Of a DNA stretch of 64,000 nt, positions 44,459-61,230 are shown one piece after another. The DNA comes from Polyangium sp. 15x6 (lineage in GTDB: Bacteria; Myxococcota_A; Polyangia; Polyangiales; Polyangiaceae): assembly GCF_029960785.1 (NCBI RefSeq), contig NZ_JASBQE010000046.1, positions 1-64,000 on the forward strand. Direction: 5' to 3'. The notes under the pieces are model-generated. The model had not been told where the DNA came from, did not search any database, and was given only the letters and a program-made list of their open reading frames with translations. A program made the translations under genes and the position numbers. Each line of letters opens with the position of its first letter. Position 1 is the first letter of the stretch.

Positions 44459-45163
44459 ATGGATTCGATCCGTAGGCGTGGTCCCGCGTCGTCTCCCTCG
44501 CTCTTCGTCGTCGCCGTCGCCGCGGCCTTCGGCAGCGTCAGCGCGTGCAGCTTCGATTGGGAGGGGTACGATCCGCGGCTTGCGTCGAACAGCGAGGCCG
44601 GGGCGACGGGGCCCGGATCCGGCGGAGGTGGCGGAGCGGGGGGCGCGGGCATTGGAGGAATGGGCACCGGCGGAATGGGCGGTGGTGGAGGGGGCGCAGG
44701 CGGCGCACCCCCGACCGGCCTCCGCTTGCAGTACAAGAACGCCAATCCGAAGGTCGATGACATACAAATCCAGCCGCATTTCAAGATCGTGAACGAGACC
44801 CAGGAGAACGTGCCGCTGAGCGACCTCGAGATCCGCTACTGGTTCACGGGCGACGGCGGGATGAACTTCGTCTACGATTGCGATTTCGCCCAGTTCAACT
44901 GTATTCATACGTCGGGCACGTTCGTCCCGGCGTCCGGCATGAAAGCCGACATGTATGCCGAGATATCGTTCGCCGTCGGCGCCGGCGTGCTCGTCGCCGG
45001 CGCCGACAGCGGGGAGATCCAGGCGCGCTTGCACACGCAGAACTTCACGACCGTGAACCAGGCGGGGGATTACTCGTTCGATCCGACGAAGGTCTCCTTC
45101 ACCGACTGGACGAACGTCACACTCTATTCCAAGGGCGTCCTTGTCTGGGGAAACGAGCCTTGA
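44459..45163 (+). CDS. CBM3 cellulose-binding lipoprotein
   Basis: 234 aa from ATG 44459, preceded by GAGGGGG. The signal peptide ends GSVSAC (Cys30). About 50 residues of Gly/Met-rich linker lead to a family 3 carbohydrate-binding module (LRLQYKNANP, IQPHFKIVNE, LEIRYWFTGDG, SGEIQARLH, YSFDPTKVSFTDW). No catalytic domain is present. The module is a clear paralogue of the one at 188-637. As a lipid-anchored CBM it could hold cellulose fibres near the cell or act as a cellulose receptor. It is sandwiched in an operon between a TPR/PEGA-like protein and a transmembrane Ser/Thr kinase. Confidence 0.88.
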   Translation: MDSIRRRGPASSPSLFVVAVAAAFGSVSACSFDWEGYDPRLASNSEAGATGPGSGGGGGAGGAGIGGMGTGGMGGGGGGAGGAPPTGLRLQYKNANPKVDDIQIQPHFKIVNETQENVPLSDLEIRYWFTGDGGMNFVYDCDFAQFNCIHTSGTFVPASGMKADMYAEISFAVGAGVLVAGADSGEIQARLHTQNFTTVNQAGDYSFDPTKVSFTDWTNVTLYSKGVLVWGNEP

Positions 45164-45173
45164 GGAGCAGGCA

Positions 45174-46625
45174 ATGGAGCTGCGGGGAGGGCGATACGAG
45201 ATCCTGCATTTGATCGCATCGGGCGGAATGGCGACCGTGCACCTCGGGCGCGCGCTCGGCATGGGCGGCTTCGAGCGGCTCGTGGCGATCAAGACGATGC
45301 ACGCGCACCTCGCCGACGAGCCCGAGTTCGTCGCGATGTTCCTCGACGAGGCGCGCCTCGCCGCGCAGATCCGCCACCCGAACGTGGTCGGCACGATCGA
45401 CGTCCAGCAGGACGAGCGGGGCGTCTTCATCGTGATGGAGTACATCGAGGGGGCTTCCCTGCAGCAGCTCTTGCGCGCCCTCCACAAGCAGGGGGCCACG
45501 CTGCCGCTCGACATCGCGCTCCGCGTGTTTCTGGACATGCTCGCCGGGCTGCACGCCGCGCACGAGCTCTCGGACGTGCAGGGCAAACCCCTCCACCTCG
45601 TGCACCGCGACGTCTCGCCGCAGAATGTCCTCATCGGCGTGGACGGCGTCGCGAGAATCACGGATTTCGGCGTGGCGCGGGCCGAGGCGCGGATGTCGAC
45701 GACACACGGCTCGCAGCTCAAGGGCAAGATCGCGTATATGTCGCCCGAGCAGGCGGGGCGATTGCCGGTCGATCGGCGGACGGACGTCTACGCAGCCGCC
45801 GTCTTGCTCTGGGAGCTCATGTCGCTGAGGCGGCTCATCCGCGGCGACAGCGAGGCCGAGATGCTCGCGAAGGTCGTGGCGAGCGAGACGCCGTCCCCGC
45901 GCTCCGTGAACCCCGACGTGCCGGAGGCGCTCGACGCCGTGTGCATGCGCGGGCTCGAGAAGAATCCGGACGCGCGTCATGCCACGGCGGCCGATTTCGC
46001 CGAAGCCCTGGACGACGCCGTCCGGAGCATGGGAATGAAAATCGCGACGCCGCGCGCTGTCGCGTCGTTTGTCCGGGCCCAGGGGATCCACACGCCGCTC
46101 GTGGAATTGCGCTCGAAGAGCAGCGAGGAGGGCCAGGCCGCGCTCGTTCCGACGCGAATCGACAATCCTGGCTCCGGGCGCGCTCGGGCCTCGAGCACCT
46201 CCGACGTGAAATCGACGGCGAGCGCGTCGGCCGTCATCGTGCCCCCGGAGGAGAGCCGAGGCAGGCGCGTGCGGCCGGCGCCGCTCGCAATGGCGGTCGT
46301 CGCGGCGCTCGCGCTCGCCGCCGGCGCATTCTGGGGGCTTCGTCCTCCGCGGACGAACGAGGCCGCGCCGGCGGTGTCGTCGACACCGGCGCCGTCCATC
46401 GATCCTCCGGCGGTCGTGCCTTCGCCGAGCGCGGCGGCCGCGTCGGCACACGCGACGAGCGCCCCCGAGGCGCCCGCTCCTCGGGCGACGGAGTCCGCGC
46501 GGGCGGCGCCCGTCTCGTCGAAGGCGGGGAAGAATGCGGCGACGACGAAGCGTGATCCGAGCACGCCCGCGACGGCGACCGCGCGGGCTTCGGGCGGCCC
46601 GATGTATCGACCGCCGGAGCTTTAG
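45174..46625 (+). CDS. Transmembrane Ser/Thr protein kinase
   Basis: 483 aa from ATG 45174, preceded by GAGGAGCAGG. The kinase domain (about 5-285) has ASGGMATVHLG, Lys40 in VAIKTM, HRDVSPQN with catalytic Asp146 (the Ser in place of Lys after the Val is typical of a myxobacterial kinase branch), TDFGVA and MSPEQ. A juxtamembrane region rich in Ser/Ala follows, then one membrane helix (about 372-390, APLAMAVVAALALAAGAF) and a 90-residue Ala/Pro/Ser-rich outer tail without a recognisable sensor domain. It is third in an operon with a CBM3 lipoprotein, so a sensory protein in the same operon could supply the signal. This link is inferred. Confidence 0.9.
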   Translation: MELRGGRYEILHLIASGGMATVHLGRALGMGGFERLVAIKTMHAHLADEPEFVAMFLDEARLAAQIRHPNVVGTIDVQQDERGVFIVMEYIEGASLQQLLRALHKQGATLPLDIALRVFLDMLAGLHAAHELSDVQGKPLHLVHRDVSPQNVLIGVDGVARITDFGVARAEARMSTTHGSQLKGKIAYMSPEQAGRLPVDRRTDVYAAAVLLWELMSLRRLIRGDSEAEMLAKVVASETPSPRSVNPDVPEALDAVCMRGLEKNPDARHATAADFAEALDDAVRSMGMKIATPRAVASFVRAQGIHTPLVELRSKSSEEGQAALVPTRIDNPGSGRARASSTSDVKSTASASAVIVPPEESRGRRVRPAPLAMAVVAALALAAGAFWGLRPPRTNEAAPAVSSTPAPSIDPPAVVPSPSAAAASAHATSAPEAPAPRATESARAAPVSSKAGKNAATTKRDPSTPATATARASGGPMYRPPEL

Positions 46626-46874
46626 GGTTTTACAATCCCGCTTGCGCGTGGCTCCTCGCGGAGCGACAGCCGGGGAATTCCTTCCGTCGGCGTGCGCGGG
46701 GCACCGACGCGAATCCCGAGTTCCGTCGTCCCGGATGGCAATGCAAGGCGGCGGTGCCTCGGGCGGAACCGATTCGTTCCGGGCGGGGTTTCACCACGTC
46801 GCGGGCGGTCCCATGAACACGCCCGGGGGCCGACGGTTCGTGGGAACCATGCCTCCATCACAAGGAGAGAGGTC

Positions 46875-47219
46875 ATGTCCATCCATTCCATGTCTCGAAT
46901 GCTGAAGACCGGTTTTGGGCTCGCTCTGGTTGCGTCGTTCGCGCTGATGAGCGGCAGCGCGCTTTCGCATCCCAGCCGTGATGGGGCAGCCGTGGAAGAA
47001 GGGACCATCGGGGAAGCTGCATCCGCCATCGATACCGGGATCTTCCGCTGCACCCTGGGGAGCGGAAGCGTGATGGGGTCGCTTTTGGTCAGGCCGGACG
47101 AGACGTGCAGGCGATTCACGACGACGCTGGCCGGTGCCTCCAATCGGTACTGTCCGCAGGGGGCCTGCGTATCGTGTTATAGCCTCGCTCGGGATATCGG
47201 CTGTATTCTGGAAAACTGA
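46875..47219 (+). CDS. Small secreted protein with one six-cysteine motif
   Basis: 114 aa from ATG 46875, with AAGGAGAGAGG upstream. A Sec signal peptide (about 30 residues, ending SALS-HP) leads to a short acidic propeptide-like part (EEGTIGEAASAID) and a 60-residue domain: C-x18-C-x14-C-x4-C-x2-C-x8-C. The same spacing recurs twice in the next gene. It has no lipobox. I do not recognise the family; the strict Cys spacing suggests three disulfides or a metal site. It may act outside the cell. The 249-bp gap before it shows no gene. Confidence 0.78.
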   Translation: MSIHSMSRMLKTGFGLALVASFALMSGSALSHPSRDGAAVEEGTIGEAASAIDTGIFRCTLGSGSVMGSLLVRPDETCRRFTTTLAGASNRYCPQGACVSCYSLARDIGCILEN

Positions 47220-47254
47220 GGCCAGGTCATACGAGTTCGCTGGCGGCGTCGAGG

Positions 47255-47281
47255 AGGGGGGGACGCGAGGCGTCCCCCCTT
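47255..47281 (+). terminator. Strong GC hairpin after the six-Cys gene
   Basis: AGGGGGGGACGC pairs with GCGTCCCCCCTT around a GAG loop (10-12 bp stem). It lies 35 bp after the stop at 47219 and 78 bp before the next start. No run of T follows, so it could be a factor-assisted terminator or an mRNA-protecting stem. Confidence 0.4.
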
Positions 47282-47358
47282 CGGGACGAAAAAGCTGGAA
47301 CGTATCGCGGTTGTCGAGTCGATCGACGTTCAGCGCACGATCGACGATGGAGGCGACG

Positions 47359-47913
47359 ATGAGAATCACGCATCGCGCGAGGCGCGCCGTCGGGGCCGGG
47401 CTCGCGCTCATGGGCATGTTCACACTCGTGGGCGGGTGTACTGCGATGGATCCTGCAGGCGGGGCAGGGGAGCCCGACGAGGGAGCGATTGTCGAGGCGG
47501 AAGAGAGGATTACAACCGGGGTCTATCAATGCAGCATGGCGGGGGCACGGAGATCGTCCTTGGTCGCGAATGAGGACGGGACGTGTACCCGGTACAGTAC
47601 GCACATCGTGGGGGCGTCGGAGTTGTACTGTATCGGAAACTCCTGCCAGCCGTGCTGGCACGTCGGGCGAAAGCTCGGCTGCCACTCGGTGCGTACGGCC
47701 CGACTGCGGAATTATGTGACGAGTACACCCCGTACCTATCGTTGCACGCTGGCAGGGGGGACCATCGTCGGGGCGCTCGTGGTTCGGCCTGACGCGACAT
47801 GCTCGCGAATCCCGTCGTGGGTAGAGGACGCCAAGATGGATTTCTGCCTCGATGGGGTCTGTCCCTCGTGCTTCAGCCTGGGTCGTGACATCGACTGTCT
47901 GATGAGCAATTGA
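47359..47913 (+). CDS. Lipoprotein with two six-cysteine motifs
   Basis: 184 aa from ATG 47359, with GGAGG 5 bases upstream; ATG 47347 would add four residues. The signal ends TLVGGC (Cys27), a lipobox. After an acidic linker (EPDEGAIVEAEERI) come two copies of the motif found in 46875-47219: C-x17-C-x14-C-x4-C-x2-C-x8-C and C-x18-C-x14-C-x4-C-x2-C-x8-C. The second copy is closer to the single-copy protein (LVVRPD, FSLGRDIDC versus YSLARDIGC). This points to a gene duplication followed by internal duplication. The family is not recognised; function unknown. Confidence 0.78.
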   Translation: MRITHRARRAVGAGLALMGMFTLVGGCTAMDPAGGAGEPDEGAIVEAEERITTGVYQCSMAGARRSSLVANEDGTCTRYSTHIVGASELYCIGNSCQPCWHVGRKLGCHSVRTARLRNYVTSTPRTYRCTLAGGTIVGALVVRPDATCSRIPSWVEDAKMDFCLDGVCPSCFSLGRDIDCLMSN

Positions 47914-47968
47914 CGGCGAGGGGGATGGGAAACACCCAGGCACCTCTCCCTGATCGCGCGCAAGGCCG

Positions 47969-48508
47969 TTACGACCAGAATCTCCACCAGGGACGCCGGG
48001 CCTTCGTGCTCGTCGGCTGAATGCAGACGAACTCGCAGCCGAACTCGCGCGCGTGGATGTCCATCTGGTTCGCGAGTTCGACCACGACTTCCAGGCCGCG
48101 CACGAGAGGGCGGGTGATGACCTTGATCTGGAGCTGCCCGGCGTTTTCCTCCGAGACCTTGGCCTCCCAGTCCTCGTCACCTCCAAGCTCGGCGGCGAGC
48201 GACGTGGCCGACGCTCGATCGCTCGAGACGAAGAAAGCTTCGAATCGCCCCCGCGAGCCTTCCTGCACCCCATCGGCTGCCATCTTCGACCAGAGCGCCT
48301 CGGCGGCGCGGAGATGCGCCGCCCGCTTTTCGTCGGCCTTCTCTTGGTCCTCGATCTCTTGGAGGAGCAACCTTTTGGCATCCTCGCCGGAGATCGGCTC
48401 GCCGAGCGTGATGCCATGTGGCAGATCGGCGCTGTCCCGCTTTCCAGCTACGACCTCGGCCGCGATCTTCAGTACTTCTTCCTTCTGCGCGGTCGACGGG
48501 TTCCCCAT
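47969..48508 (-). CDS. RraB-like (ribonuclease E inhibitor domain) protein
   Basis: 179 aa from ATG 48508. The C-terminal half (about 90-165) looks like the RraB/DUF695 ferredoxin-like fold: GRFEAFFVSSDRASATSLAAEL, an acidic loop, QLQIKVITRPLV, then LEVVVELANQMDIHAREFGCEF. The first 85 residues are helical and charged (QKEEVLKIAAEVVAGK, LLLQEIEDQEKADEKRAA) and are not part of the RraB domain. RraB binds RNase E in E. coli and alters which mRNAs it cuts. Whether this protein does so is unproven. The 47-bp gap to the P450 stop and shared orientation make co-transcription possible. Confidence 0.6.
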   Translation of the reverse strand: MGNPSTAQKEEVLKIAAEVVAGKRDSADLPHGITLGEPISGEDAKRLLLQEIEDQEKADEKRAAHLRAAEALWSKMAADGVQEGSRGRFEAFFVSSDRASATSLAAELGGDEDWEAKVSEENAGQLQIKVITRPLVRGLEVVVELANQMDIHAREFGCEFVCIQPTSTKARRPWWRFWS

Positions 48509-48555
48509 CCGGAGGTGCCTCCAGCGGCGGCCTCATAGCACGACATCCGCTCCCG

Positions 48556-49752
48556 TCACCAGGTGACCGGGAACTCGTACATGCCGTACACGGTGGCGTC
48601 GTCCTTGAAGCTCAGCTCCTCCTCGGGCACGGCGGGGCGCAGCTCCGGGATCCGCCGGAACAGCGTATCGAGGACGATTTGCAGCTCGAGCCGGGCCAGG
48701 TTTTGACCGAGGCACTGGTGCGGGCCAAAGCCGAAGGCGAGGTGATTGCGGGCGCCACGTGCGACCTCGAGCTCGTCTCCGTTCGTGAAGACCTCCGGAT
48801 CACGATTGCCCATGTTGGCCAGCACGACGACGCCTTCCCCGGCCCGGATGAGCACACCACCGAGCTCCACGTCCTCGGTGGCGACCCGACCGATGCCGGC
48901 TTCTGCAATGGTGAAGTAACGCAAGAGCTCCTCGACGGCTGGCAGGGTCTTTTCGGGGTCTTGCCGAAGGACCGCCAGCTTTTCGGGATGCTTCAGCAGC
49001 ATCAGTGTGCTCAGCGAAATCATGTTCGCGGTCGTCTCGTGACCCGCGATCAAGAGGATGAAGGCCAGGTTGAGCATGGCCTCGTGATCGTAAGCCCCTT
49101 CTTCGCGCAGCTTGACGATCTGGCGGCCGAGCAAATCGTCGGTCGGATTTTGCTCCTTGTCGATCACCAGCTTGTTCAGATAACCCACGAGCTCGAAGAA
49201 CGCGCCCGCCTTCTCTTCCATGGACACCGTACGTCCCACCAGTTTCGCGGAGCGCGTCTGGAAAAACTCGTGATCCGCGTAAGGCACGCCGAGCAGCTCG
49301 CAAATCACGAGCGATGGCACCGGCAGGGACAACGCCTGCACCAGGTCGACCGGGCGCGGTCCGGCCAGCATGGCGTCGATGGACTGGTCCACGATTTGCT
49401 GAATGCGCGGCGCGAGCGCGGCCATCCGCTTGACGGAGAACTCACCCACCACGGCCCTTCGTGCGGACGCGTGCTCTTGCCCGTCCATATCGATCAGGAA
49501 CGGCTTGGCGCTCAGGGGCGGCGGCGTTTTTTCGGTCAGGTGGGGGAAGCCGGGATTGCGCCGGCTGGCGCTGAACCGTGGATCGGACAGGATCGTCCGA
49601 ATGTCCTCATGCCTGGTGACAGCCCAAGCCGTCGCGCCCGAGGGCAGCTCGACCTTGGCGATGGGCGCCTCTTTTCGGAGCTGTCGATGCTGCGCAGGCG
49701 GCGCGAAAGGGCAGGTCCGGGTGATGGCGAGCGGAATGGCATCGGCGATCAT
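48556..49752 (-). CDS. Cytochrome P450
   Basis: 398 aa from ATG 49752, with GAGGAGG 6 bases upstream. Marks: the I-helix oxygen-activation motif AGHETTAN, the ExxR pair in VEELLRYF, and the haem-binding loop FGFGPHQCLG with axial Cys347. Length and sequence resemble soluble bacterial CYP105/CYP107-like enzymes that hydroxylate macrolides, terpenes or xenobiotics. It needs a ferredoxin and a reductase, neither of which is adjacent. It is divergent from a TetR gene, with three operator-like sites between them. Likely an inducible detoxification or tailoring enzyme; the substrate is unknown. Confidence 0.93.
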   Translation of the reverse strand: MIADAIPLAITRTCPFAPPAQHRQLRKEAPIAKVELPSGATAWAVTRHEDIRTILSDPRFSASRRNPGFPHLTEKTPPPLSAKPFLIDMDGQEHASARRAVVGEFSVKRMAALAPRIQQIVDQSIDAMLAGPRPVDLVQALSLPVPSLVICELLGVPYADHEFFQTRSAKLVGRTVSMEEKAGAFFELVGYLNKLVIDKEQNPTDDLLGRQIVKLREEGAYDHEAMLNLAFILLIAGHETTANMISLSTLMLLKHPEKLAVLRQDPEKTLPAVEELLRYFTIAEAGIGRVATEDVELGGVLIRAGEGVVVLANMGNRDPEVFTNGDELEVARGARNHLAFGFGPHQCLGQNLARLELQIVLDTLFRRIPELRPAVPEEELSFKDDATVYGMYEFPVTW

Positions 49753-49778
49753 GGTTCCTCCTCGGTTCGGGCTCAACA

Positions 49779-49840
49779 CTAACCGATCGGTAAGTATATG
49801 GCAAGCCGATCGGTCAGGATGTGGCTTACCAAACGGTAAG
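49779..49840. promoter_or_regulatory. Three operator-like palindromes spaced 23 bp apart
   Basis: Sites: CTAACCGATCGGTAAG (49779-49794), CAAGCCGATCGGTCAG (49802-49817) and CTTACCAAACGGTAAG (49825-49840). Outer sites fit CTTACC-N4-GGTAAG; the middle one fits mainly on its right half. Centres are exactly 23 bp apart, about two helical turns, so the sites face the same side of the DNA. They lie between the P450 and TetR starts. Confidence 0.65.
49793..49798 (-). promoter_or_regulatory. -10-like element of the P450 gene
   Basis: TATACT on the minus strand, about 40 bases upstream of the P450 ATG and touching the first palindrome, so a bound repressor would cover it. No good -35 match is visible at the right distance. 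Confidence 0.35.
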
Positions 49841-49911
49841 TTCGACTGGCTGATCGGAAAGCATGCCGAACGGCGAGGGGCGGGGTACTGTCTCGGGTCC
49901 CAAGGAGGGCC

Positions 49912-50517
49912 ATGACTGCCGGCACCGCTGTCAACGACACGAGATCACGACTGCTCGCCACCGCGCTGAAGCTGTTCGGCGAACACGGGATGGAGGGCAC
50001 GTCGATGCAGATGATCGCCGACGATCTCGGCGTCACGAAGGCCGCCCTCTACTACCACTTCAAGTCCAAGGACGAGATCGCCGAGGCCGTGGTCGCGCCC
50101 GCTTTGCAGGAGATGGATCAGATCCTCGATGAAGCGCGCACGAAACGGAGCCGGGGCGCGCAGATCGATCACGCGCTCGCAGGGTTCGTCGACCTCATCG
50201 TCCGTGAGCGCACGCTGGTCGGCCTGTTCAACAGCGACCCCGGGCTTCAGCGTCTCATCAACCGGACGTTGCAGGCGCGGGACGAGGACCTCAAGACCAA
50301 ATTGAGAACGGTCTTCGCTGGTGCCGATGCGAGCCTCGCCGACGCGATCACCGTGCACGTCATGTCCGCGGGGCTCGCGATGGCCGGCGGCGCTCGCGAG
50401 TTCGCAGCGGTCGACGACGACTCCTTGCGCCAGCACCTGCTCGACGCGGGCAGGCGCCTGCTCGGCCGTCCTCGCCCCAAGCACCCAGGCAAAAGCCGGC
50501 TGGGTCTCCGCATCTGA
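49912..50517 (+). CDS. TetR/AcrR family regulator divergent from the P450
   Basis: 201 aa from ATG 49912, with AAGGAGGG immediately upstream. The helix-turn-helix is clear (MEGTSMQMIADDLGVTKAALYYHFKSKDEIAEAVV in parts). The C-terminal ligand-binding domain is helical, ending in a basic tail (RPRPKHPGKSRLG). The layout (divergent P450, 159-bp intergenic region with phased palindromes) suggests it represses both itself and the P450 until a ligand, perhaps the P450 substrate, is bound. The basic tail is longer than usual and may add DNA contacts. The next gene downstream is unrelated and starts 66 bp later. Confidence 0.92.
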   Translation: MTAGTAVNDTRSRLLATALKLFGEHGMEGTSMQMIADDLGVTKAALYYHFKSKDEIAEAVVAPALQEMDQILDEARTKRSRGAQIDHALAGFVDLIVRERTLVGLFNSDPGLQRLINRTLQARDEDLKTKLRTVFAGADASLADAITVHVMSAGLAMAGGAREFAAVDDDSLRQHLLDAGRRLLGRPRPKHPGKSRLGLRI

Positions 50518-50583
50518 CCTCATTGCGGGCTGCGCCGCGGTTGCATGGGCGAGGCCCCCTCGGGTAGATTCCGGTCCTTCCTC

Positions 50584-52071
50584 ATGAGAATGCGATCGCT
50601 GCCCAGGGTGCTGGTCACGCTCCCACTCGTCATTTCGTGCGGAGCGACGTCGGAGCCCGCACCGAGACGCGTCGCGGTAGCGCGTCCGGCCGAGACCACA
50701 CCGCAGCCTCGAACGTCGCCTTCGGCCCCCGCAACGCCTGCGGTGCCGCCTTCGCCTCCGCCGGACGTACCGCCACCCTCGCCAAAGCTCGCTCCTCCGG
50801 GGCATGTGACGCGCGTCGTCGGCGGCGACGACAGTGATCGCGCCTGCGCCATCTTCGAGAACGGCATGCTCCAGTGCTGGGGCGGGTCCAACGCCTCTGG
50901 CGAGCTCGGCCGTGGCCATACCCGTCACGAAACGACGCCGGCCTGGGTCCAGGGCATTCGCGACGTGAAAAAGCTCGTGCTCGGCCGTTCCGCCACCTGC
51001 GCCATCGTCGGGTCGGGAGACCTTTCTTGCTGGGGCACCGACCGTCTCCAGCAGGACTGGCATGGATACGTGACGATGCCCGCCCGGGTCCCGGGGCTCT
51101 CGAACGTCGTCGATGTCGCGGTGAGCGTCTGGCACGTGTGCGCCGTGGACGCCGCGGGAAGCGTATTTTGCTGGGGCAATAACCAGAGCGGGCAGCTCGG
51201 CCTGGGCGCGAGCGCGATCGGCACCGAAACGAAGCGGCCCACGCAGGTCCCTGGGATTCAGGATGCCGTGGGGGTGGCCGTATCGGACGACACCACCCTG
51301 GTCTGGACCCGCGGCGGCGACGTCCTCCGGTGGGGAAACGCGCGAGACCTGACGAAGCCTTCGGCCGCGCCGGACCCGCGCAAGGTCGAAGGGCTCTCCG
51401 GCGTCAAGCGTGTCCGCATGTCGCACCATCAGGCCTGCGCGTTGCTCGCGACGAGCGAGGTGCGGTGCTTCGGCAGCGATACACTCGTGTCTCTCGCGGC
51501 AGGCAAGGAGCACGACTACGGCCCGGAGCTCGCTCGGCGCGCGGCCAAGCTGAAGCTACCGCCCCGCAATCTGAGCTTCCCCGATGGACGAGGGATCTCT
51601 GGGGTCGTCGACGTCGCGTCGTTCAACCATGACGCCACGGCCTGGACCGAAAAGGGGGAGGTTTTCTCCTGGGGGAATGCGGAGCGCGGCACCGTGGGCC
51701 GGCCCCTCGGGACGAGAGGGTATTTACCGCCGACCCGGATCCAGGGGCTCTCGGACATCGTCGAGGTGGCTGGCAGCTTCAAGCACCGCTGCGCTCTCGA
51801 GAAACAAGGCAACGTCTACTGTTTCGGTGACGGCAAATCGGGGGGATTCGGGAGCGACGTGCAAAGGAGCTCGCCCTCGGGCGTGCTCGTCCCCGGATTG
51901 CCGAAGATCGTCCACATCGCGTCCAGCAGCTATTGCACGTTCGCGCTCGGCGAAGATCACTCCCTGTGGGGCTGGGGGAGTCTCTGGGGCAACGCATGCG
52001 GCATCGACGGTGGCGGAGAGAGAGTGACGAAGGCCCCGATGCGGGTGCCGCTCGAGCCGCCGAGCCCATGA
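50584..52071 (+). CDS. RCC1-repeat lipoprotein
   Basis: 495 aa from ATG 50584 (ATG 50590 is equally possible). The signal ends LPLVISC (Cys19). A Pro/Ala/Ser-rich spacer of about 65 residues leads to some seven RCC1-type repeats, seen as recurring CWG/CFG/SWG cores with GxxVxCWGxNxxGQLG patterns, such as VFCWGNNQSGQLGLG and VYCFGDGKSGGFG. This gives a seven-bladed beta-propeller. Extracytoplasmic RCC1-like propellers are abundant in myxobacteria, but their partners are mostly unknown. It ends 27 bp from a convergent beta-helix gene. Confidence 0.86.
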   Translation: MRMRSLPRVLVTLPLVISCGATSEPAPRRVAVARPAETTPQPRTSPSAPATPAVPPSPPPDVPPPSPKLAPPGHVTRVVGGDDSDRACAIFENGMLQCWGGSNASGELGRGHTRHETTPAWVQGIRDVKKLVLGRSATCAIVGSGDLSCWGTDRLQQDWHGYVTMPARVPGLSNVVDVAVSVWHVCAVDAAGSVFCWGNNQSGQLGLGASAIGTETKRPTQVPGIQDAVGVAVSDDTTLVWTRGGDVLRWGNARDLTKPSAAPDPRKVEGLSGVKRVRMSHHQACALLATSEVRCFGSDTLVSLAAGKEHDYGPELARRAAKLKLPPRNLSFPDGRGISGVVDVASFNHDATAWTEKGEVFSWGNAERGTVGRPLGTRGYLPPTRIQGLSDIVEVAGSFKHRCALEKQGNVYCFGDGKSGGFGSDVQRSSPSGVLVPGLPKIVHIASSSYCTFALGEDHSLWGWGSLWGNACGIDGGGERVTKAPMRVPLEPPSP

Positions 52072-52098
52072 GCCCTGCGCGGGCGCGAGCCGGGCGCC

Positions 52099-53166
52099 TC
52101 AGTTGTCTGGACAAGCGCTGTTCGGGATGTTGAAGCCGCACCTCGTTCCCAGGCTCTGGTTGTTCACCACGTCCGACGAGAAGACATTCGAGTGCACCCG
52201 CGTCTCGGTCGCCGACCCCGTGATGTACACGCCGTTGTAGCCATTGCTTTCGAAGCGGTTGTTCTCGACCATGGTCGCGTAGGAGCCGAGCATCATGGCG
52301 CCGACGAGGCTCCCCTCGAAGCGGTTGCCCGAGAAGAGGTGATCGTTGTTCCACGCGCCCGGGCCGTCCGAGGGGCCGAAGACCTTGACGCTGTAGAACG
52401 TGGCGAGGCCCAGCGTGCTGTCGCGGACGCGCCAGTGATTGGCACCCCTGTGGAGCATCATGTTGAAGGCGTTCCCGTAGAACGTCGACTTGTCGACGAG
52501 CACCGAATACGCGTCCTTGCCGAAGAGGCCCACCGCGAAGCCCGAGACGCGGACGTTCTCGAGCCGAACGATATTGCCCCCCGACACGTTGATGCCCGAG
52601 TTCCAGGTGCCGCCGCTCCCGCGGACGATCCACAGGTCGCGGATGACATTTTCGGAGACACCACTCGGGAGCACCGGCTCGACGCTGAGCGCAGGCGCAT
52701 GGTCGGGCAGATTCCAGAAGGCGAGCACGCCCTGGCCGGCGGGACCGACGCCCGCCAGCGTGAAGCGGGCCGGGATCTGGATGGGCTCGTAAACGTCGCA
52801 CTCCTCGTCGACGATGAGGGTCGCATTCGCGTGCTCGCTGTTCTTCACCTCCTTGAGGAAGCAGGGGAGGTTTTCACAGCCAATCTCGCTCAGGAAGTAA
52901 AATCGATCCTTGAAGAGGCCCGAAAGCCCCCCGGGGGGGATGCCCGGGCAGCTCGTGATGTCGTCGACGAACGTGGACATCGCGTCCGCATCGAAGCCCG
53001 CCAGCATCTGCGCGTTCGTTGGAGGGGCGGTCTGCGCGTGTGCGATGCCCTCGACGAGGTCATCGGACCATCGATAGGCAGCCGATGCCACGACGGAAGC
53101 GCATGCGACGAGCACGGCGGCGCGCACGGCGATGGGACGAGTGAAGATGCGGAACGTGGTGCTCAT
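52099..53166 (-). CDS. Exported right-handed beta-helix protein
   Basis: 355 aa from ATG 53166 (ATG 53175 is three codons upstream). A hydrophobic N-terminal region (RAAVLVACASVVASA) serves as signal or anchor. The centre has regularly spaced strands with Asn/Gly turns (NVIRDLWIVRGSGG, NIVRLENVRVSGFAVGLFGK, VLVDKSTFYGNAFNMMLHRG, HLFSGNRFEGSL, MVENNRFESNGYNGVYITG). This is typical of pectate-lyase-like parallel beta-helices (PbH1 repeats). Such folds often bind or cleave polysaccharides, and no catalytic residues can be assigned. Four Cys in the N-terminal part (TSCPG, IGCENLPC, EECDV) may pair. It is divergent from the kinase operon. Confidence 0.82.
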   Translation of the reverse strand: MSTTFRIFTRPIAVRAAVLVACASVVASAAYRWSDDLVEGIAHAQTAPPTNAQMLAGFDADAMSTFVDDITSCPGIPPGGLSGLFKDRFYFLSEIGCENLPCFLKEVKNSEHANATLIVDEECDVYEPIQIPARFTLAGVGPAGQGVLAFWNLPDHAPALSVEPVLPSGVSENVIRDLWIVRGSGGTWNSGINVSGGNIVRLENVRVSGFAVGLFGKDAYSVLVDKSTFYGNAFNMMLHRGANHWRVRDSTLGLATFYSVKVFGPSDGPGAWNNDHLFSGNRFEGSLVGAMMLGSYATMVENNRFESNGYNGVYITGSATETRVHSNVFSSDVVNNQSLGTRCGFNIPNSACPDN

Positions 53167-53525
53167 GATTGCCAATGCCTCGCGGTAAGGGTCGAAATCG
53201 TCTCGATCGGTCTTCGGTCGGTCCTCGGTCGGACAGCAATGACCATGCCGCGCGCATTTCCCCGCACGTCACGAGGAGAGAACGCCCATCTCCGACCCAA
53301 ACTGTTACGTCCGCGCTACGGTCGCCAACGGAGGTGTCATGGCGTCGTGTCAGTGTCACGCGCGCGTTACACCGACGAGCGCGCGCACGGCGTGATCGTC
53401 TCGACCCGCATGCATGAGAGGCTGAATCGGGCATGGTACGGGTGTTGCTTGGCGGAAGCGATCGTCTTGAAAGGCAGGGCATCGTGAAGGACGTCGGCGA
53501 CGAGGGGAGGAGCGAGGACCCTCCT
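53167..53525. other. 359-bp gap between divergent genes
   Basis: No gene is visible. It should hold the promoters for the beta-helix gene and the kinase operon. A short direct repeat of TCGGTC units occurs at about 53200-53232. Two in-frame alternative starts for the kinase (53433 ATG, 53484 GTG) lie in its last part, so the true gap may be shorter. Confidence 0.5.
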
Positions 53526-56500
53526 ATGGCCGCGACCGCGGAAGCTGCGGTCGTGGATCCCGGGGCGCCTCCTCGCGCCGCCGGGCCGGCGCTGCGAAAC
53601 ACGGTGAGCGATGATCGAAAGCACGCGGCGGCCCTCCCTGGGATGGCCGTGCTCGAGCGTGCTCCGCGGGACGAGATTCGGGAGCTGCCGCCTTCGATAT
53701 GGGAGAGGTTCGACGATCTCTCCCTCCTCGGTCGAGGCGGCATGGGCACGGTTTATCGCGGGTGGGACAAGCAGCTCGCGCGGGACGTGGCCCTCAAATT
53801 CGTCCACGGGCACGACGCGGCGCGCTTTCTGCGCGAGGCGCGGGCGCAGGCGCGGATCAATCATGACAATGTCTGCAAGATCTACGACGTGGGGTTTGCC
53901 GACGGGCAGCCCTACATCACGATGCAGCTCGTGCGCGGGGAGCCGCTCTCGTCGGCTTCTCGCGAGATGACGCTCGAGGAGAAGGTCAAGGTCATTCGCG
54001 AATCGGCCAGCGCGCTCCACGAGGCGCATCGGCTCGGCCTCGTGCACCGGGACGTCAAGCCGCAGAACATCCTCGTCGAGCGCACCGAAGATGGGCTCTT
54101 TCGGCCCTTCGTCATGGATTTCGGCCTGGCGCGTATCGTGGGGGAGCGCGGGGAGACCCTGACGGGCCAGGTCGCAGGAACCCCGGCGTACATGGCGCCC
54201 GAGCAGGCGCGCGGGGAGATTCGTTCGCTCGATCGGCGCACGGACGTGTATTCGCTGGGCGCCACGCTCTACGACATGCTCGCGGGTCGGCCGCCGTTCG
54301 TCGAGGAGCATCCATGGAAGGTCTTGATGCGGATCGCCACCGAGGACGCGCCTGCGCTTCGGAGCGTGTGTCCGCGTGTTCCTGCGGATCTCGAGACGAT
54401 CGTGATGAAATGCCTCGAGCGGGATCCGGGGCAGCGTTACGAATCCGCACGGGCGCTCGGGGAGGATTTGCAACGGTACCTCGATGGCGAGCCTGTGCTC
54501 GCCCGCAAGGCGTCGGTCGGTTATCGGCTGGTGAAGCTCGCTCGCAAGCACAGGGCCCTCGTCTCGCTCGTGGCGCTCGGGCTCGTCGTGGCTGCCGTGC
54601 TTCTGGGGTTCGCCCTTCGGGCACGGCGGCTCGCCGCGGAGGAGGCGCGGCTCGCGCAGGAGCTAGGCGAGGACGTGAAGGAGATGCAGCTCTTCATGCG
54701 GTATGCGTACTCGCTGCCGCTGCACGACGTCGAGCGAGAGCGGGCCGTGGTTCGCAAACGGCTCGCGGAGATCGAGGCAAGGATCTCGGTGACGGGGGCG
54801 ATCGGGCGAGGGGCCGGGCATTACGCGATCGGGCGAGGGCATCTGGCGCTGCAGGAGCCGGAGAAGGCGCTCGGGCATTTGAAAGAGGCGCAGGTTGCGG
54901 GGTACACGTCGCCGGAGCTCGAATATGCGCTCGGGCGGGCGATGGCGCATGTTTATCGCGAAGAGGTCGAGGGGCTGCGGAGGATCGAGGACAAGAAAGA
55001 GCGCGCTGAGCGCAAGGCGGAGCTCGACGCGACGTACAAGACCCCGGCGCTCGCGCATCTGCGCGCGGCGACGGGATCGAGGCTGGAGCACCCCGCGTAC
55101 GTCGAGGGGCTCATCGCGCTGGTCGAGGGGCGGCACGAGGACACGTTGCGGCTCGCAAAGCAGGCTGAGAGCGAGGCCCCGTGGTTCTACGAGGCGGTGG
55201 TGCTCGAGGCGGAGACGCGCTTCGCGATGGGGAGCGAGTTCAGGCACGACGCGGCATTCGATTACGAGAGGATGATGTCGCATTTCGGCCCCGCCATCGA
55301 GGCGTACCGGCGCGCCTCCGCCGTGGGCACGAGTGACCCGGCGGTGCACGAGGGGGCGTGCAACGTCTTCGTGCAGATCTTGAACGCGGCAGCATTGACC
55401 CGACGGAGCGTGCAGGAGCCCTTCGAGGAGGGCAAGAAGGTATGCGAGCAGGCGGTCGCCTCGGACCCGAGGCGGGGGTCGGCGCACGTCGCGCGGGCTT
55501 ACCTTCATCATCCCTGGACATGGGCCGTGTACTACACGAAAACCGATCGGGTTTCGCTCTGGCGTGATCAAGTCGACATGGCGGAAAATGCCGCCCGGAT
55601 GGCAAACGAAGACCCGGTTGCGCATTGGCTCGTGGGGGCTGCGTGGCACGTGTACGGAATTGCGTTATATCATGCCAATCTGGACGCGGACGGCGCATTC
55701 GAGCGATCCGAGGCCGGGTGTCTCGAGTCGCTCCGTCTCAGCCCCACCTTCGCGTTGCCGAACAACGATCTCGTGCGCGTGTACATCATGCGCGCGCACC
55801 TCGCCGAAATTCGCGGCGCGGATACGTTCGCGTTCATCGATCGTGCGCGTGCGGCGGTGGTGCGCGCGCGGTCGAAGGCACCAGATTTCAAACCGGTACG
55901 ACAGTCTCAATGGGACCTGAACATTGATGAAATTTTACTCCGTCTCGAGCATGGCCAGGATCCGACATCCCTGATCGCATCGGCCAACCACGACTGCAAC
56001 GACCCCATCCTCCCTTTGGCCAAGGATGAGAAACCAGCGCACGCCAGATATTGCTACCTAATGGCCCTGTTCGATGTGGACTTCGCCCTGGCCAGCGGTC
56101 GCGATCCCCGCGCGTCGCTTGCTCGTGCGGCGGAGCTCGTCGAAGACCTGCACACACTCGAACTCCGAGAGGAGCTTTTCGTGCGCGCAGCGCAGGCTGC
56201 CCTGGCCCGCGGAGAGTCACCGGAGGCCGACGTCACCCGTGCGATCGAGGCGATTCTCAGCGACAGCGCAACGACCGGGATGAGCCGGTTCGCTTCCATG
56301 AACCTCGGCCTCATGCAACTCACGCTCCTTCGATGGGCCATGATCCAGGGCACTGTGAACGCCCGGATGTTCGAGGAGCCCCTGGAGAGCCTCGCGCCCA
56401 TCTCGGGCCCGAAGCACGTCGATCCGCAGCCCTTCCAGCTCGCCGCCGCGGTCCACGAGCGCCGCGCCGCCTGGCTGCTCGGCCAACGAAAGGACCCCTC

Positions 56501-56765
56501 GGAGGCGCTCGCGAAAGGGTTTGGCATGATCGACGAGGCATTCCGCCGAAACCCGCGCATGCCCCGGGCCTTCGCCACGCGCGGCGATCTGCACCTCGTC
56601 GAGGCGCGCGCCGCGAAGGATCCCAAGATCCGCGAAGAAGCCGCGCGGCGCGCCAAGGAATCCTTTGACGCGGCCCTCGCCGGCAACAAATTCCTCGCCC
56701 GCGAGACCGAGGCCTCTCGCAGGGAGGTCGACCGGATGCTCGAAGCAGAAGACTCCTCGAAATGA
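53526..56765 (+). CDS. Ser/Thr protein kinase with large TPR-like region
   Basis: 1079 aa from ATG 53526, with GAGG 9 bases upstream; GTG 53484 (AAGGCAGG before it) and ATG 53433 are possible starts. The kinase domain begins near residue 60: GRGGMGTVYRG, Lys91, HRDVKPQN (174-181), DFG (198-200) and APE. One membrane helix (345-364, ALVSLVALGLVVAAVLLGFAL) separates it from about 700 residues of helical, TPR-like repeats expected outside the cytoplasm (for example YALGRAMAHVYREEVEGL). It is followed 25 bp later by a TonB-dependent receptor and then a lipoprotein, so the kinase may belong to an uptake or surface-sensing operon. Confidence 0.9.
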   Translation: MAATAEAAVVDPGAPPRAAGPALRNTVSDDRKHAAALPGMAVLERAPRDEIRELPPSIWERFDDLSLLGRGGMGTVYRGWDKQLARDVALKFVHGHDAARFLREARAQARINHDNVCKIYDVGFADGQPYITMQLVRGEPLSSASREMTLEEKVKVIRESASALHEAHRLGLVHRDVKPQNILVERTEDGLFRPFVMDFGLARIVGERGETLTGQVAGTPAYMAPEQARGEIRSLDRRTDVYSLGATLYDMLAGRPPFVEEHPWKVLMRIATEDAPALRSVCPRVPADLETIVMKCLERDPGQRYESARALGEDLQRYLDGEPVLARKASVGYRLVKLARKHRALVSLVALGLVVAAVLLGFALRARRLAAEEARLAQELGEDVKEMQLFMRYAYSLPLHDVERERAVVRKRLAEIEARISVTGAIGRGAGHYAIGRGHLALQEPEKALGHLKEAQVAGYTSPELEYALGRAMAHVYREEVEGLRRIEDKKERAERKAELDATYKTPALAHLRAATGSRLEHPAYVEGLIALVEGRHEDTLRLAKQAESEAPWFYEAVVLEAETRFAMGSEFRHDAAFDYERMMSHFGPAIEAYRRASAVGTSDPAVHEGACNVFVQILNAAALTRRSVQEPFEEGKKVCEQAVASDPRRGSAHVARAYLHHPWTWAVYYTKTDRVSLWRDQVDMAENAARMANEDPVAHWLVGAAWHVYGIALYHANLDADGAFERSEAGCLESLRLSPTFALPNNDLVRVYIMRAHLAEIRGADTFAFIDRARAAVVRARSKAPDFKPVRQSQWDLNIDEILLRLEHGQDPTSLIASANHDCNDPILPLAKDEKPAHARYCYLMALFDVDFALASGRDPRASLARAAELVEDLHTLELREELFVRAAQAALARGESPEADVTRAIEAILSDSATTGMSRFASMNLGLMQLTLLRWAMIQGTVNARMFEEPLESLAPISGPKHVDPQPFQLAAAVHERRAAWLLGQRKDPSEALAKGFGMIDEAFRRNPRMPRAFATRGDLHLVEARAAKDPKIREEAARRAKESFDAALAGNKFLARETEASRREVDRMLEAEDSSK

Positions 56766-56790
56766 CGTGGACCAAGAATAGAGGATTGAC

Positions 56791-59700
56791 ATGCGCTTGA
56801 TCTCCAGAGCCACACGATGCTTTCTCATGGGAGCGACCTGCGTCGGGCTGCTCGTCGCGCCTCCTGCCTTCGCCGCCGGAGACGCGGTCTTGACCGGGAC
56901 CATCCGCGACGCGTCGACCAAAAAGCCGCTCGCGAACGTCGTCGTCACCGTGACCTCCCCCGCGCTGCAGGGCGAGCAGACCGTCGTGACCGACGCGGCC
57001 GGCAACTATCGCGTCCCTCAGCTCCCACCGGGCGAATACACGATTCGGCTCGATGGGGATCGGCACAAGCCCTTCTCTCGCGGCGGGATCACGCTCCGCA
57101 CGAGCAGCACGCTCCGCGCCAACCTGGAGCTCATGCCGGACGAGCTGCGAGAGGAGATCGAAGTCGTCGCCAAGGCCCCGACGGTCGACATCGGATCGAC
57201 GACGACGGGCTTGATCGTCGATTCGGATCTTTCGCATCGCCTCGCGGTGGCCCCCCCGGGAGGTCGTGCGTCCGCCGTGCGATCGTTCGAGAGCCTCGGA
57301 GCGCTCGCGCCCGGCGCGCAGCCGACCCCCATCGGCTTTAGCATCAACGGCTCGTCGGCCCCCGAAAACCGATTCCAGATCGACGGCGTCTCCGTGGGCA
57401 GCGCATCGGACGGCATCAACGATACGCCGCTTTCGCTCGAGTTCGTCAAGGAGGTCAACATCGCCACGGGTGGATACATGCCCGAGTACGGCCGGACGAC
57501 CGGCGGCGTGTTCGATGTCGTCACGAAGTCGGGTGGCAACGAGTTTCATGGGTCGGTCTTCGGCAGCTTCACGCCGGGCGCATTCGAGGGACAACGAAAG
57601 CCCGTGCGCGCGGCGGGCACCGTGGTCGCCGTCGACCAGAAGCTCGGCGCGATGCGTGATTTCGGTTTCGAGCTGGGCGGGCCCATCATGAAGGATCGCC
57701 TCTGGTTCTACGCGGGCTTGAACGTGGCCATGCAGGACCTCGATATCGTGCGCTCGCTCAATCGCTTGCGGTACGAGACGAACCCCGACGGCTCCTTGGT
57801 GCTGGACGCGAAGGGCAACCCCATCAGCCTCCGCGACGAGTACGGATTTCAGCTCACCTCGCCCATCGAAGGAGGCACGCGTCGATACATCGCTTCCAAG
57901 GAGACGCTGCAATACATCGGCAAGCTGACCTGGCTCATCAACCCCTCGCACACGTTGACGCTCTCCGTGTTCGGCTCGCCCACGTCGTCCGGCGGTGATG
58001 GGCGAATCTCGCTCAACGGGGTCACGGGCACGACCACGACGATCAACACGAGCTTGCTGGAAGGAGAATACGCGGCCTTCGGGAGGCAGGAAGAGCAGAG
58101 GATCAACACGGTCTCGCTCAAGCTCTCGTCGTCCTTCCTGAACAAGAAGCTGCTCCTCGACACGACGCTCGGATATCACCACGCTTATTCGAATCGCCTG
58201 CCGGTCGACGGGTCGGGAATCGGCAGCGGCCAGGGGCTCGATACCGTGCCCGGCATCTCGTGGACGCGGGGGACCCCGCACACCATCGCCGATTTCGAGA
58301 ATCTCCCGGCGGGGAGCGGCTGCGAGCCCAAGGGTTCGACGAAGGTCATCTATTGCCCCGTGCGCGCGTACCTGACCGGCGGACCCGGGAACGTCAACGA
58401 AAACATCACGAACCGCTTCCAGGGTCGAGCCGTCCTCACGTACCTCTTGAGCGCGCTCGGGCAACACGTCATCAAGGCGGGGATCGACCTCGAGGTGTCG
58501 AACAGCCTGTTCGCGCGAGCGAACACCGGAAACGTGTGGTTCTCGGAGACGTACGACGGCTCCGCCTGGCAGGTCTGGCGCATCGGAAACCTGACGAGCC
58601 CGGACAACGTGTACGTGCCGAGCTTGCAGTCTCCCACGACGCACTCCACCATCGTCGGCGGGTTCGTTCAGGATAGCTTCACGTTCCTGGACCGGGTCAC
58701 GGTGAATGCGGGGTTGCGGTACGACGCGCAGATGATGTCGAGCAGCGAGGGGGTGGGCATGGTGCTGCCCAACCAGTGGTCTCCGCGCGTCGGAGCCATT
58801 TACGACCCCACCGGTCAGGGCCGGTCGAAGATCTTCGCCAGCTACGCGCGTTATTACGAAAACGTGCCCCTCGGCCTGGCCGAGGGCTTGTTCGTTCAGC
58901 GGCCGTTCACCGTGTCCAATGTGTCGAAATCCGTGTGCGACCCGTCCGATCCCACCAAGGTCGAGGCCTGCCTGGACCCGAAGAACCGCCTCACGATCGG
59001 AACGCCGTTCTCGCCGAACCGGCAATGGGGTTTTTATTACGGCGATCGCGCGCCGGTGGATCCGGAGATCGAGGCGCAGTCGATGGACGAGATCTCGGCG
59101 GGCGGCGAGTACCAGGTCTTCGACGCTGCGCGCGTGGGCCTGAACTACACGCACCGGTCGCTCCATCGCGTCATCGAGAACATGAGCCGGGATGAAGGGA
59201 CGTCGTTCTTCGTTGGCAATCCCGGGCACGGCGCGGCCTCCGACTTCCCCGAGGCGCGACGTGATTACGATGCCTTGACGCTGTTCTTCCAGAAGTCGTT
59301 CTCCCAGGGGTGGCTCGCGCTCGCCAGCTACACGGCGTCCTTTCTCCGCGGGAACTATCCCGGGCTCGCCACGAGCAACTATCCGTCCCCGCACACGCTC
59401 TCGGACTTCGACCTGCTCTCGCTCCTGCCGAACCGCGATGGCCCGCTCCCCGGGGATCGGCGCCATACGGTCAAGGTCTACGGCGCCAAGGAATTCGCGC
59501 TCCCGAAGAACATCCGCATCAACGTCGGAATGAGCTACACGGGCACGTCGGGCGCCCCGCTCGATGTCCTCGGCGCTCATCCCTATTACGGTCGGGGCGC
59601 CGCATTCATCCTGCCGCGTGGTTCGGGTGGCAATCTGCCGTGGATCCACAGCATCGATTCGAACCTCGCCATCGGCTACAAGATCAGCAAGGACAGCACG

Positions 59701-59988
59701 CTCTCCGTGAACGTGGACGTGTTCAACTTGTTCAACTTCCAGGCCGAGACCGGCCGCGATCAATCCTTCACGTACGCAAACGTCCGGCCCATCGAGGGAG
59801 GAACGCAATCGGACCTGCCGGAGAAGGACGAGTCGGCATGCGCGACCGGCGCCGGTTGTCGGTACAAGCTCGTGAACTTCGCGGACGGCTCGCCCTTCGA
59901 TCCCGCCAACCGAAACCCCAACTACGGCAGCCCCACATCGTACCAGGCCCCGAGGACGATCCGCATGGGCGTCAGGTTGACCTTCTGA
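56791..59988 (+). CDS. TonB-dependent receptor (Oar-like) with carboxypeptidase-regulatory-like domain
   Basis: 1065 aa from ATG 56791. The signal peptide ends PAFAAG (about 29). Residues 30-115 form a CarboxypepD_reg-like domain (LTGTIRDASTKKPLANVVVTV, NYRVPQLPPGEYTIRL). A plug-like region with INGSSAPENRFQIDGVSV and YMPEYGRTTGGVFDVVTKSG follows, then a long beta-barrel ending in VRLTF with the C-terminal Phe typical of outer-membrane barrels. The plan is that of the Oar/SusC-like branch. It should import, or in the case of Oar help display or secrete, something across the outer membrane using TonB energy. It lies between a kinase gene and a lipoprotein gene, with gaps of 25 and 23 bp. Confidence 0.9.
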   Translation: MRLISRATRCFLMGATCVGLLVAPPAFAAGDAVLTGTIRDASTKKPLANVVVTVTSPALQGEQTVVTDAAGNYRVPQLPPGEYTIRLDGDRHKPFSRGGITLRTSSTLRANLELMPDELREEIEVVAKAPTVDIGSTTTGLIVDSDLSHRLAVAPPGGRASAVRSFESLGALAPGAQPTPIGFSINGSSAPENRFQIDGVSVGSASDGINDTPLSLEFVKEVNIATGGYMPEYGRTTGGVFDVVTKSGGNEFHGSVFGSFTPGAFEGQRKPVRAAGTVVAVDQKLGAMRDFGFELGGPIMKDRLWFYAGLNVAMQDLDIVRSLNRLRYETNPDGSLVLDAKGNPISLRDEYGFQLTSPIEGGTRRYIASKETLQYIGKLTWLINPSHTLTLSVFGSPTSSGGDGRISLNGVTGTTTTINTSLLEGEYAAFGRQEEQRINTVSLKLSSSFLNKKLLLDTTLGYHHAYSNRLPVDGSGIGSGQGLDTVPGISWTRGTPHTIADFENLPAGSGCEPKGSTKVIYCPVRAYLTGGPGNVNENITNRFQGRAVLTYLLSALGQHVIKAGIDLEVSNSLFARANTGNVWFSETYDGSAWQVWRIGNLTSPDNVYVPSLQSPTTHSTIVGGFVQDSFTFLDRVTVNAGLRYDAQMMSSSEGVGMVLPNQWSPRVGAIYDPTGQGRSKIFASYARYYENVPLGLAEGLFVQRPFTVSNVSKSVCDPSDPTKVEACLDPKNRLTIGTPFSPNRQWGFYYGDRAPVDPEIEAQSMDEISAGGEYQVFDAARVGLNYTHRSLHRVIENMSRDEGTSFFVGNPGHGAASDFPEARRDYDALTLFFQKSFSQGWLALASYTASFLRGNYPGLATSNYPSPHTLSDFDLLSLLPNRDGPLPGDRRHTVKVYGAKEFALPKNIRINVGMSYTGTSGAPLDVLGAHPYYGRGAAFILPRGSGGNLPWIHSIDSNLAIGYKISKDSTLSVNVDVFNLFNFQAETGRDQSFTYANVRPIEGGTQSDLPEKDESACATGAGCRYKLVNFADGSPFDPANRNPNYGSPTSYQAPRTIRMGVRLTF

Positions 59989-60011
59989 TCGCGTGAACGA
60001 GGAGACGAATC

Positions 60012-60881
60012 ATGAAACGCCACGATCACATCAAGTCGTTCGCCCTCGGGGCCTGTGCGCTCCTGTTCACGGCCGCATTCGGCACGTCATGCGAGCAGCC
60101 GCCAATCCTCTGCGAGGTCGCGAGCGGTGCCTATATCGTGAAGTACTTCCCGAAAGAAGCCGGCAACGATTGCCTCATGCTGCCAGGGGAAGAGGTAGGG
60201 ATGTCCGTGTACAACCCGCCGAAGGGAGATGACCGAGAAATCGATGCCCTCCGGGCAACGGTCGCGATCCAGGCAACCTCGATGGGCGTTCTGGCGGACA
60301 CCGCGAAGGCCACGGCGGAGGCGACGGATCCAGACCCGAACCACAAGCAATACTCGTTCGGCAATTACACGGCCCGGCCAGACGCGAACGATTTCTGCGC
60401 AGCATCGGACCTCTCCGTCGCCGAGCAGCACATCCCGGAGACGGCCTACGAGGACAAAGACGGGAACCCCGCAATCTACCCCGAGACGCGGCTCGCCTAC
60501 GAATGGCGCGACGTGCGGGTACACATGGCCTTCGCAACACCAGGCAACGCCGCGACAGGCGAAGTGACCATCACGCGAGAGAGCGAAGACCCCGCTACAG
60601 GCAATCGCGAGACCTGCACCACGACCTACATCGCGAGCGCCCTGTTCCCCTCCGTCGGTTGCGAAGCCGTAGACGCCGCAGGTCAAGCGACAGGAACGCC
60701 CGACGACACGCGCTGCTGCGCCAAGGCCAACCCAGACAAAGGAAGGCCCTTCGGCTCCGGCATCCACCCCGATTTCAAGGTAAAGTGTGACCCAACCCTG
60801 CTTCAGTGCGTGCTCGACTGGAAGCCAGGGGAATCCTTCCCGCCCCTCGGGGCGAATTCCTTTTGCGGCGACGGGAGCTGA
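60012..60881 (+). CDS. Lipoprotein downstream of the TonB-dependent receptor
   Basis: 289 aa from ATG 60012, with GAGGAGACG upstream. The signal ends AAFGTSC (Cys27). The mature protein has scattered Cys (ILCEV, NDCLM, DFCAA, ETCTT, VGCEA, RCCAK, KCDPTLLQC, SFCG), so several disulfides are likely. There is no recognisable domain. Its position 23 bp after an Oar-like receptor suggests a surface partner that may cap or assist the barrel, in the manner of SusD-type or other accessory lipoproteins, although no SusD similarity is visible. Copy B of the inverted-repeat element begins 20 bp after its stop. Confidence 0.75.
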   Translation: MKRHDHIKSFALGACALLFTAAFGTSCEQPPILCEVASGAYIVKYFPKEAGNDCLMLPGEEVGMSVYNPPKGDDREIDALRATVAIQATSMGVLADTAKATAEATDPDPNHKQYSFGNYTARPDANDFCAASDLSVAEQHIPETAYEDKDGNPAIYPETRLAYEWRDVRVHMAFATPGNAATGEVTITRESEDPATGNRETCTTTYIASALFPSVGCEAVDAAGQATGTPDDTRCCAKANPDKGRPFGSGIHPDFKVKCDPTLLQCVLDWKPGESFPPLGANSFCGDGS

Positions 60882-60901
60882 GTCTCTCATCGGGGGCGCC
60901 G

Positions 60902-61206: not shown

Positions 61207-61230
61207 CAACGCCTTCCAGCTGAGACCCCG

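Follow-up and report, generated by a model that had tools for sequence, protein, structure and literature searches.

Two adjacent genes on the forward strand of the Polyangium sp. 15x6 window, by which we mean the whole 64,000-nucleotide stretch of DNA that was analysed, encode exported proteins that contain a domain with six cysteines, the first protein once and the second twice (Table 1). The original prediction of such a repeat in two neighbouring exported proteins was borne out: both open reading frames lie at the claimed coordinates, and the profile scores given below exceed those of shuffled sequences. A Shine-Dalgarno-like stretch was seen by eye ahead of the ATG of both genes. Scanning for promoters returned one weak promoter-like site at the gene pair, and a terminator scan with its built-in pattern found no terminator-like site there. 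The hairpin-bearing element between the two genes recurs as partial copies at no fewer than 26 other genomic sites, a lower bound given that 40 of 175 candidates were scored. It is perhaps a terminator or a REP-like element that is not specific to the six-cysteine family.

Table 1 Features of the six-cysteine gene pair, with positions counted from the first letter of the window
Feature	Coordinates	Strand	Description
Gene 1	46875..47219	+	114-aa exported protein with one six-cysteine domain; signal peptide without the lipobox cysteine of most relatives
Domain copy w1	47025..47216	+	Profile match; AlphaFold mean pLDDT 92.8
Short intergenic element	47251..47336	none	Hairpin-bearing; partial copies elsewhere in the genome
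GGAGG	47348..47352	+	Shine-Dalgarno-like; 6 bases ahead of the gene 2 ATG, by eye
Gene 2	47359..47913	+	184-aa exported protein, lipobox-like VGGC, two six-cysteine domains
Domain copy w2	47506..47694	+	Profile match
Domain copy w3	47725..47910	+	Profile match

Export of the two proteins, which had also been predicted, is supported by putative signal peptides and, for the gene 2 product, by the VGGC read by eye at the lipobox place. The gene 1 product reads MSGS where its nearest relative, from a second genus of the Polyangiaceae (genome G282), reads VNGC. This suggests that the gene 1 product may be released and not anchored.

In the congener Polyangium sp. y55x31, the orthologues of a kinase gene (45141-46625) and of the gene for an outer-membrane TonB-type protein (56791-59988) are adjacent. 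The 10 kb between them in the window (46626-56790), which include the six-cysteine pair, were therefore either inserted here or lost there. No peptidase domain was found in the 14 window genes scanned between 37 and 63 kb, a subset of the open reading frames in that region.

The six-cysteine domain

The gaps between successive cysteines are 18-14-4-2-8, 17-14-4-2-8 and 18-14-4-2-8 in the three window copies, and 13 of 64 columns are invariant across them. Using a profile built from 20 relatives encoded in tandem arrays (see below), with the window copies excluded, we searched 752 stop-to-stop segments of the window with at least 40 amino acids. Copies w1, w2 and w3 scored 43.0, 30.2 and 35.4 bits (i-Evalues 1.4e-12, 1.3e-8 and 3.2e-10), and the top score among 3000 shuffled copies with the same profile was 11.9 bits. 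This test is not wholly independent, because the window copies had served as seeds for the searches that first turned up the 20 members of the profile.

The family as assembled here comprises 27 domain copies, all of which were re-read letter for letter from their loci. The domain spans about 60-75 amino acids, and its six cysteines, invariant in 27 of 27 copies, most likely form three disulfides. The gap between the second and third cysteines is 14 in 26 copies and 12 in one, that between the fourth and fifth is 2 in every copy, and that between the fifth and sixth is 8 in 25 of 27. A leucine stands three residues past the fifth cysteine in 26 of 27 copies, and extra cysteines occur in one member only, a distant copy on contig C33 of the same genome. 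The spacings that define the family (C2-x14-C3, C4-x2-C5 and C5-x8-C6) are present in all three window copies. Thus, the predicted variation of a single residue in spacing holds for the window copies but not over all 27, where the first gap ranges from 17 to 22 and the third from 4 to 12; among homologues, spacing is kept from C2 to C3 and from C4 to C6, but not between C1 and C2 or C3 and C4. Two of the motifs first proposed around the cysteines also had to be amended. The R/E-D-x-T ahead of the second cysteine reads [PE]-D-x-T (PDET, EDGT and PDAT), and the [SV]-x-x-[RK]-[DL]-x ahead of the sixth reads, in register, [SH]-[LV]-x-R-[DK]-[IL]-[GD].

Searches for a known family returned nothing credible. 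A Pfam scan of the window proteins and 23 members (the G282 and C33 members lay outside it) gave a best E of 0.073; NCBIfam had no match for the 27 members or the window proteins, and PHROGs held nothing credible for the family. Among PDB sequences, the entry 2i75_A (E 1.9 and 0.93) was taken as a chance match, and no other was credible. No known protease-inhibitor family in Pfam or NCBIfam was matched, including the Kazal, Kunitz and ecotin models that we take to be present in these libraries. The six-cysteine family is not named in the titles of the literature searched. The expectation that this is no described domain is thus upheld, and, as far as these searches reach, the family is undescribed in the libraries and literature covered. 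A phage, plasmid or viral origin was considered and rejected: P0002 gave 13 pattern matches in IMG/VR, none of which was confirmed, and P0001 had no match in plasmids and phages.

The C4-x2-C5 motif, which reads CPDC in 15 of the 27 copies, could in principle belong to a metal-binding or redox domain, and its invariance is in keeping with such a role. However, the proteins are exported, the number of invariant cysteines is even, and the sole zinc-finger match, that at E 0.073, concerned one of the 23 members scanned. We regard a metal or redox function as highly improbable.

AlphaFold modelled w1 (from 12 rows) with a pLDDT of 92.8 and a pTM of 0.77, placing strands at 5-11, 16-22 and 27-31, a helix at 51-58 and a strand at 61-63. 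The model of an array member (pLDDT 88.0, pTM 0.70) has the first three strands and the helix as in w1, but differs in having two short strands ahead of the helix and no listed strand behind it. The domain is thus confidently predicted to be a small alpha/beta domain. Foldseek found no match at E <= 0.001 in the PDB for either model (best E 0.82 and 0.84), which does not prove a new fold, and none at this threshold in BFVD for the w1 model. The best VIA-align scores were low (Z 3.0 over 46 residues, rmsd 4.1; Z 2.5 over 53 residues, rmsd 3.7).

Family range and gene duplication

The 27 domain copies are encoded by 25 genes in five genomes: 20 array genes, the two window genes (three domains), two genes of G282 (three domains) and the single C33 copy. 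In the window's own genome (13.4 Mb in 275 contigs), a second six-cysteine locus, on contig C245, is an array of six genes. Equivalent arrays of five, four and five genes occur in three congeners, namely Polyangium fumosum DSM 14668 (G003), which NCBI places in the Polyangiaceae of the Myxococcota, Polyangium sp. y55x31 (G004) and G005.

Among 108 Polyangiaceae genomes (up to 54 candidates scored in each), five carried the family: four of six Polyangium genomes and one of six from the second genus. In a sample of the phylum, with up to 15 candidates per genome scored, it was found in three of 377 genomes, all in the window's genus. Remote members may be missed, as the four surveys scored only some of the initial candidates of each genome (up to 64, 20, 54 and 15). 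Weak matches were counted as noise. In the survey with the first profile (E <= 0.1), 14 of the 18 genomes with matches had weak ones alone (best E 0.0048), and in the second survey seven genomes matched at E 0.001-0.009, four of them with an internal stop codon; some of these genomes may lie outside the later surveys. Within these samples, the six-cysteine family is narrowly spread and lineage-restricted.

Tandem duplication is evident in this domain family, and the proposal of gene duplication combined with internal duplication in the window pair is supported. In G282, a one-domain gene (L080 7666-8073) is likewise followed by a two-domain gene (L080 8215-8811); window gene 1 and its counterpart share 48% identity over 118 columns, and gene 2 and its counterpart 39% over 163 columns. 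Since this layout recurs in a second genus, the duplication is not recent; the layout is either older than the genus split or was transferred. The tree separates the 20 array members from the other seven with a support of 83/100 (a branch not starred), and the finer branches among the pair-type members are weak.

Tandem arrays and the linked protease

The commonest form of the family is a tandem array of four to six genes, mostly for putative lipoproteins. By eye, 19 of the 20 array proteins have a cysteine at the lipobox place behind a hydrophobic stretch (VNGC, VHGC, ANGC or VMAC). A stricter script pattern, which required L, V, I, F or M at -3, accepted 14 of the 20, and five more read ANGC; array protein a of the window's own genome has VYGF at this place and no cysteine. 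The lipoproteins would probably sit on the outer membrane.

In all four arrays, the last gene lies tail to tail with a protease gene, across gaps of 27, 27, 27 and 36 bases. The protease of the window's own genome matches the trypsin domain (PF00089, E 2.5e-21) and carries a lipobox-like cysteine, and the other three were assigned by 78-91% identity to it. By the standard motifs and residue numbering, all four retain the catalytic triad (His, Asp and Ser), together with an Asp in the position that confers a preference for Arg/Lys. A close orthologue of the protease (E <= 1e-30) was found in four of 106 Polyangiaceae genomes, the four array bearers, when at most 16 candidates per genome were scored. 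A looser search of 12 genomes in which all candidates were scored returned the same four, at 78-100% identity. The two Polyangium genomes without the six-cysteine family (G001 and G002) had no protease orthologue at E <= 1e-10. G282 has no close orthologue either; the best match there reaches 37% identity (E 1.1e-15) and is some 170 kb away from the six-cysteine pair, and the six neighbours of that pair that were scanned contain no peptidase. With 18-21 trypsin-domain loci in each of the four array genomes, a chance neighbourhood of array and protease is unlikely. The link was noticed after the fact.

The four arrays share one ancestry, and array and protease genes are convergent and do not form one operon. 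The shared block consists of the array, the protease and 0.3-0.4 kb beyond it, and occupies three chromosomal settings: the flanking DNA on both sides is common to G003 and G005, and the C245 and G004 blocks each differ in their flanks from all others. The G004 block lies between genes whose counterparts in the window's own genome are found at 60000-60868 of the window and on C216 from 69369, a site that here holds 8.5 kb of other DNA instead. Together, these comparisons show that the array form is repeatedly and physically linked to a trypsin-like protease, a predicted lipoprotein, whose catalytic residues are intact. The more informative context of the family, its tandem arrays next to a protease gene, is thus to be found beyond the window.

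Several other features were noted around the arrays. A ~330-bp repeat, an imperfect palindrome with self-matches on both strands, is present at 60892-61219 and 13785-14115 of the window and at 813-1134, 2456-2782 and 11185-11520 of L046, with dozens of matches in Polyangium genomes among the matches listed. In the window's own genome, one of the copies directly adjoins the array-protease block on its right side, and may thus have helped the block to relocate. The other flank of the C245 array carries a papain-family protease gene (L046 4255-5955, minus strand), which in y55x31 has its DNA match on a different contig. For array groups a and e, the upstream stretch is alike between paralogues and species (L046, L047 and L049), suggesting a common leader or promoter region.

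The array proteins could also be surface ligands or substrates for the linked protease, which would cut the linker so that the six-cysteine domain is shed from its lipid anchor as an active factor. Consistent with this, nine of the 20 array proteins have L-[QE]-[TS]-R directly ahead of the domain, and its Arg fits the predicted preference of the protease. However, the motif is missing from the other 11, a few of which have another Arg nearby, as well as from the window gene 1 product and both G282 proteins, and the gene 1 product appears by eye to be unanchored already. Shedding seems to us quite unlikely.

Evolutionary rates and possible function

Rates were estimated with the NG86 counting method for five orthologue groups of GC-rich genes in three species (G3, G5 and G0). 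For the pairs G3-G5, G3-G0 and G5-G0, the pooled dN/dS of the domain was 0.52, 0.82 and 1.42 (the last with a bootstrap range of 1.02-2.11), compared to 0.24, 0.30 and 0.29 for the linked protease. Pooled dN/dS therefore exceeds 1 in one of the three species pairs only, with a lower bound of 1.02. In the same order, domain dN was 0.108, 0.224 and 0.232 against 0.047, 0.056 and 0.042 for the protease, a 2.3- to 5.5-fold excess with all six cysteines kept, and domain dS was 0.208, 0.273 and 0.163 against 0.192, 0.189 and 0.147. The N-terminal parts of the six-cysteine proteins had a dN/dS of 0.62, 0.74 and 0.74. As a high GC content biases counting methods, the contrast between domain and protease carries more weight than the absolute values. 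Fast change combined with invariant cysteines suggests a constrained frame on which other sites change freely or diversify.

The family might instead consist of structural or adhesive coat proteins of the matrix, spore or fruiting-body surface; the variation would then reflect weak constraint outside the cysteine core, and the protease link would be incidental. For single orthologue groups, domain dN/dS fell between 0.3 and 1 in 18 of 24 pairs, which is compatible with relaxed constraint, and no partner gene is evident at the window pair. The remaining six pairs exceeded 1, and they include all five groups in the comparison of G5 with G0. This result, the array-protease block remaining intact in its three settings and the absence of the family from two of six Polyangium genomes, which speaks against an essential coat role, make a coat function rather unlikely in our view.

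Polyangium belongs to a group of predatory and social bacteria, and fast-evolving lipoproteins are familiar from social myxobacteria in the SitA toxins of Myxococcus, in which an immunity gene stands beside each toxin gene. Lipoproteins encoded by tandem paralogues with fast amino-acid change could likewise serve in antagonism or kin recognition against prey or non-kin. In contrast to SitA, the six-cysteine proteins share a single scaffold in which every one of the six cysteines is retained, and they have no swapped toxin domains and no evident immunity partner; none was apparent between the array genes in the lists of open reading frames, where small ones are possible. We consider an antagonistic role improbable.

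Our preferred reading, held tentatively and at somewhat less than even likelihood, is that the six-cysteine proteins are surface-tethered inhibitors or regulators of trypsin-like proteases. The domain would be a rigid, disulfide-stabilised scaffold whose variable loops bind other proteins, and the likeliest partners would be trypsin-like serine proteases, either the linked one, those of prey or rivals, or both. The window pair would represent a diverged branch that uses this scaffold with no such protease nearby. Fast-changing sites on a conserved cysteine scaffold are common among protease inhibitors, a suggestive but not a defining trait. Against inhibition, the window pair and the G282 pair have no peptidase among the neighbours scanned, and no conserved Arg or Lys stands out in the family alignment as a reactive-site residue. 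A fuller version of this proposal appears unlikely, if conceivable: the family would be a new class of surface-tethered bacterial protease inhibitors whose small disulfide fold is undescribed, carried on a relocating cassette with its own trypsin-like lipoprotein protease, tandem-duplicated and diversifying under selection by prey or rival proteases in Polyangium.

Two known kinds of inhibitor offer a comparison. In the potato type II (Pot II) inhibitors of Solanaceae, as the cited account describes them, the cysteine frame is conserved, other sites change fast and duplication has occurred (PMC2259423). Cysteine-rich repeat domains, duplication of both genes and domains, a conserved cysteine scaffold and fast change elsewhere are common to both families, but Pot II inhibitors are plant proteins, and the six-cysteine proteins are bacterial lipoproteins without a Pfam inhibitor match, for which we infer inhibition (PMC2259423). 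Ecotin, in the account cited, is an exported bacterial inhibitor of serine proteases, a 16-kDa protein that dimerises (PMC9904509). The six-cysteine proteins resemble it as exported bacterial proteins proposed to meet extracellular serine proteases; unlike this 16-kDa dimer, they are mostly tandem and mostly lipid-anchored, and they have no sequence match to it (PMC9904509).

Venoms, plant defence and host-pathogen interfaces typically feature families of small, disulfide-rich proteins that diversify while their cysteine frame stays fixed. Should the protease link prove incidental, the six-cysteine family would still be a new domain family for the libraries. A lipid-anchored, arrayed bacterial case with a physical link to a surface protease would provide a compact, easily expressed scaffold, and would make it possible to test directly by what means such bacteria keep proteolysis outside the cell in check or withstand it.
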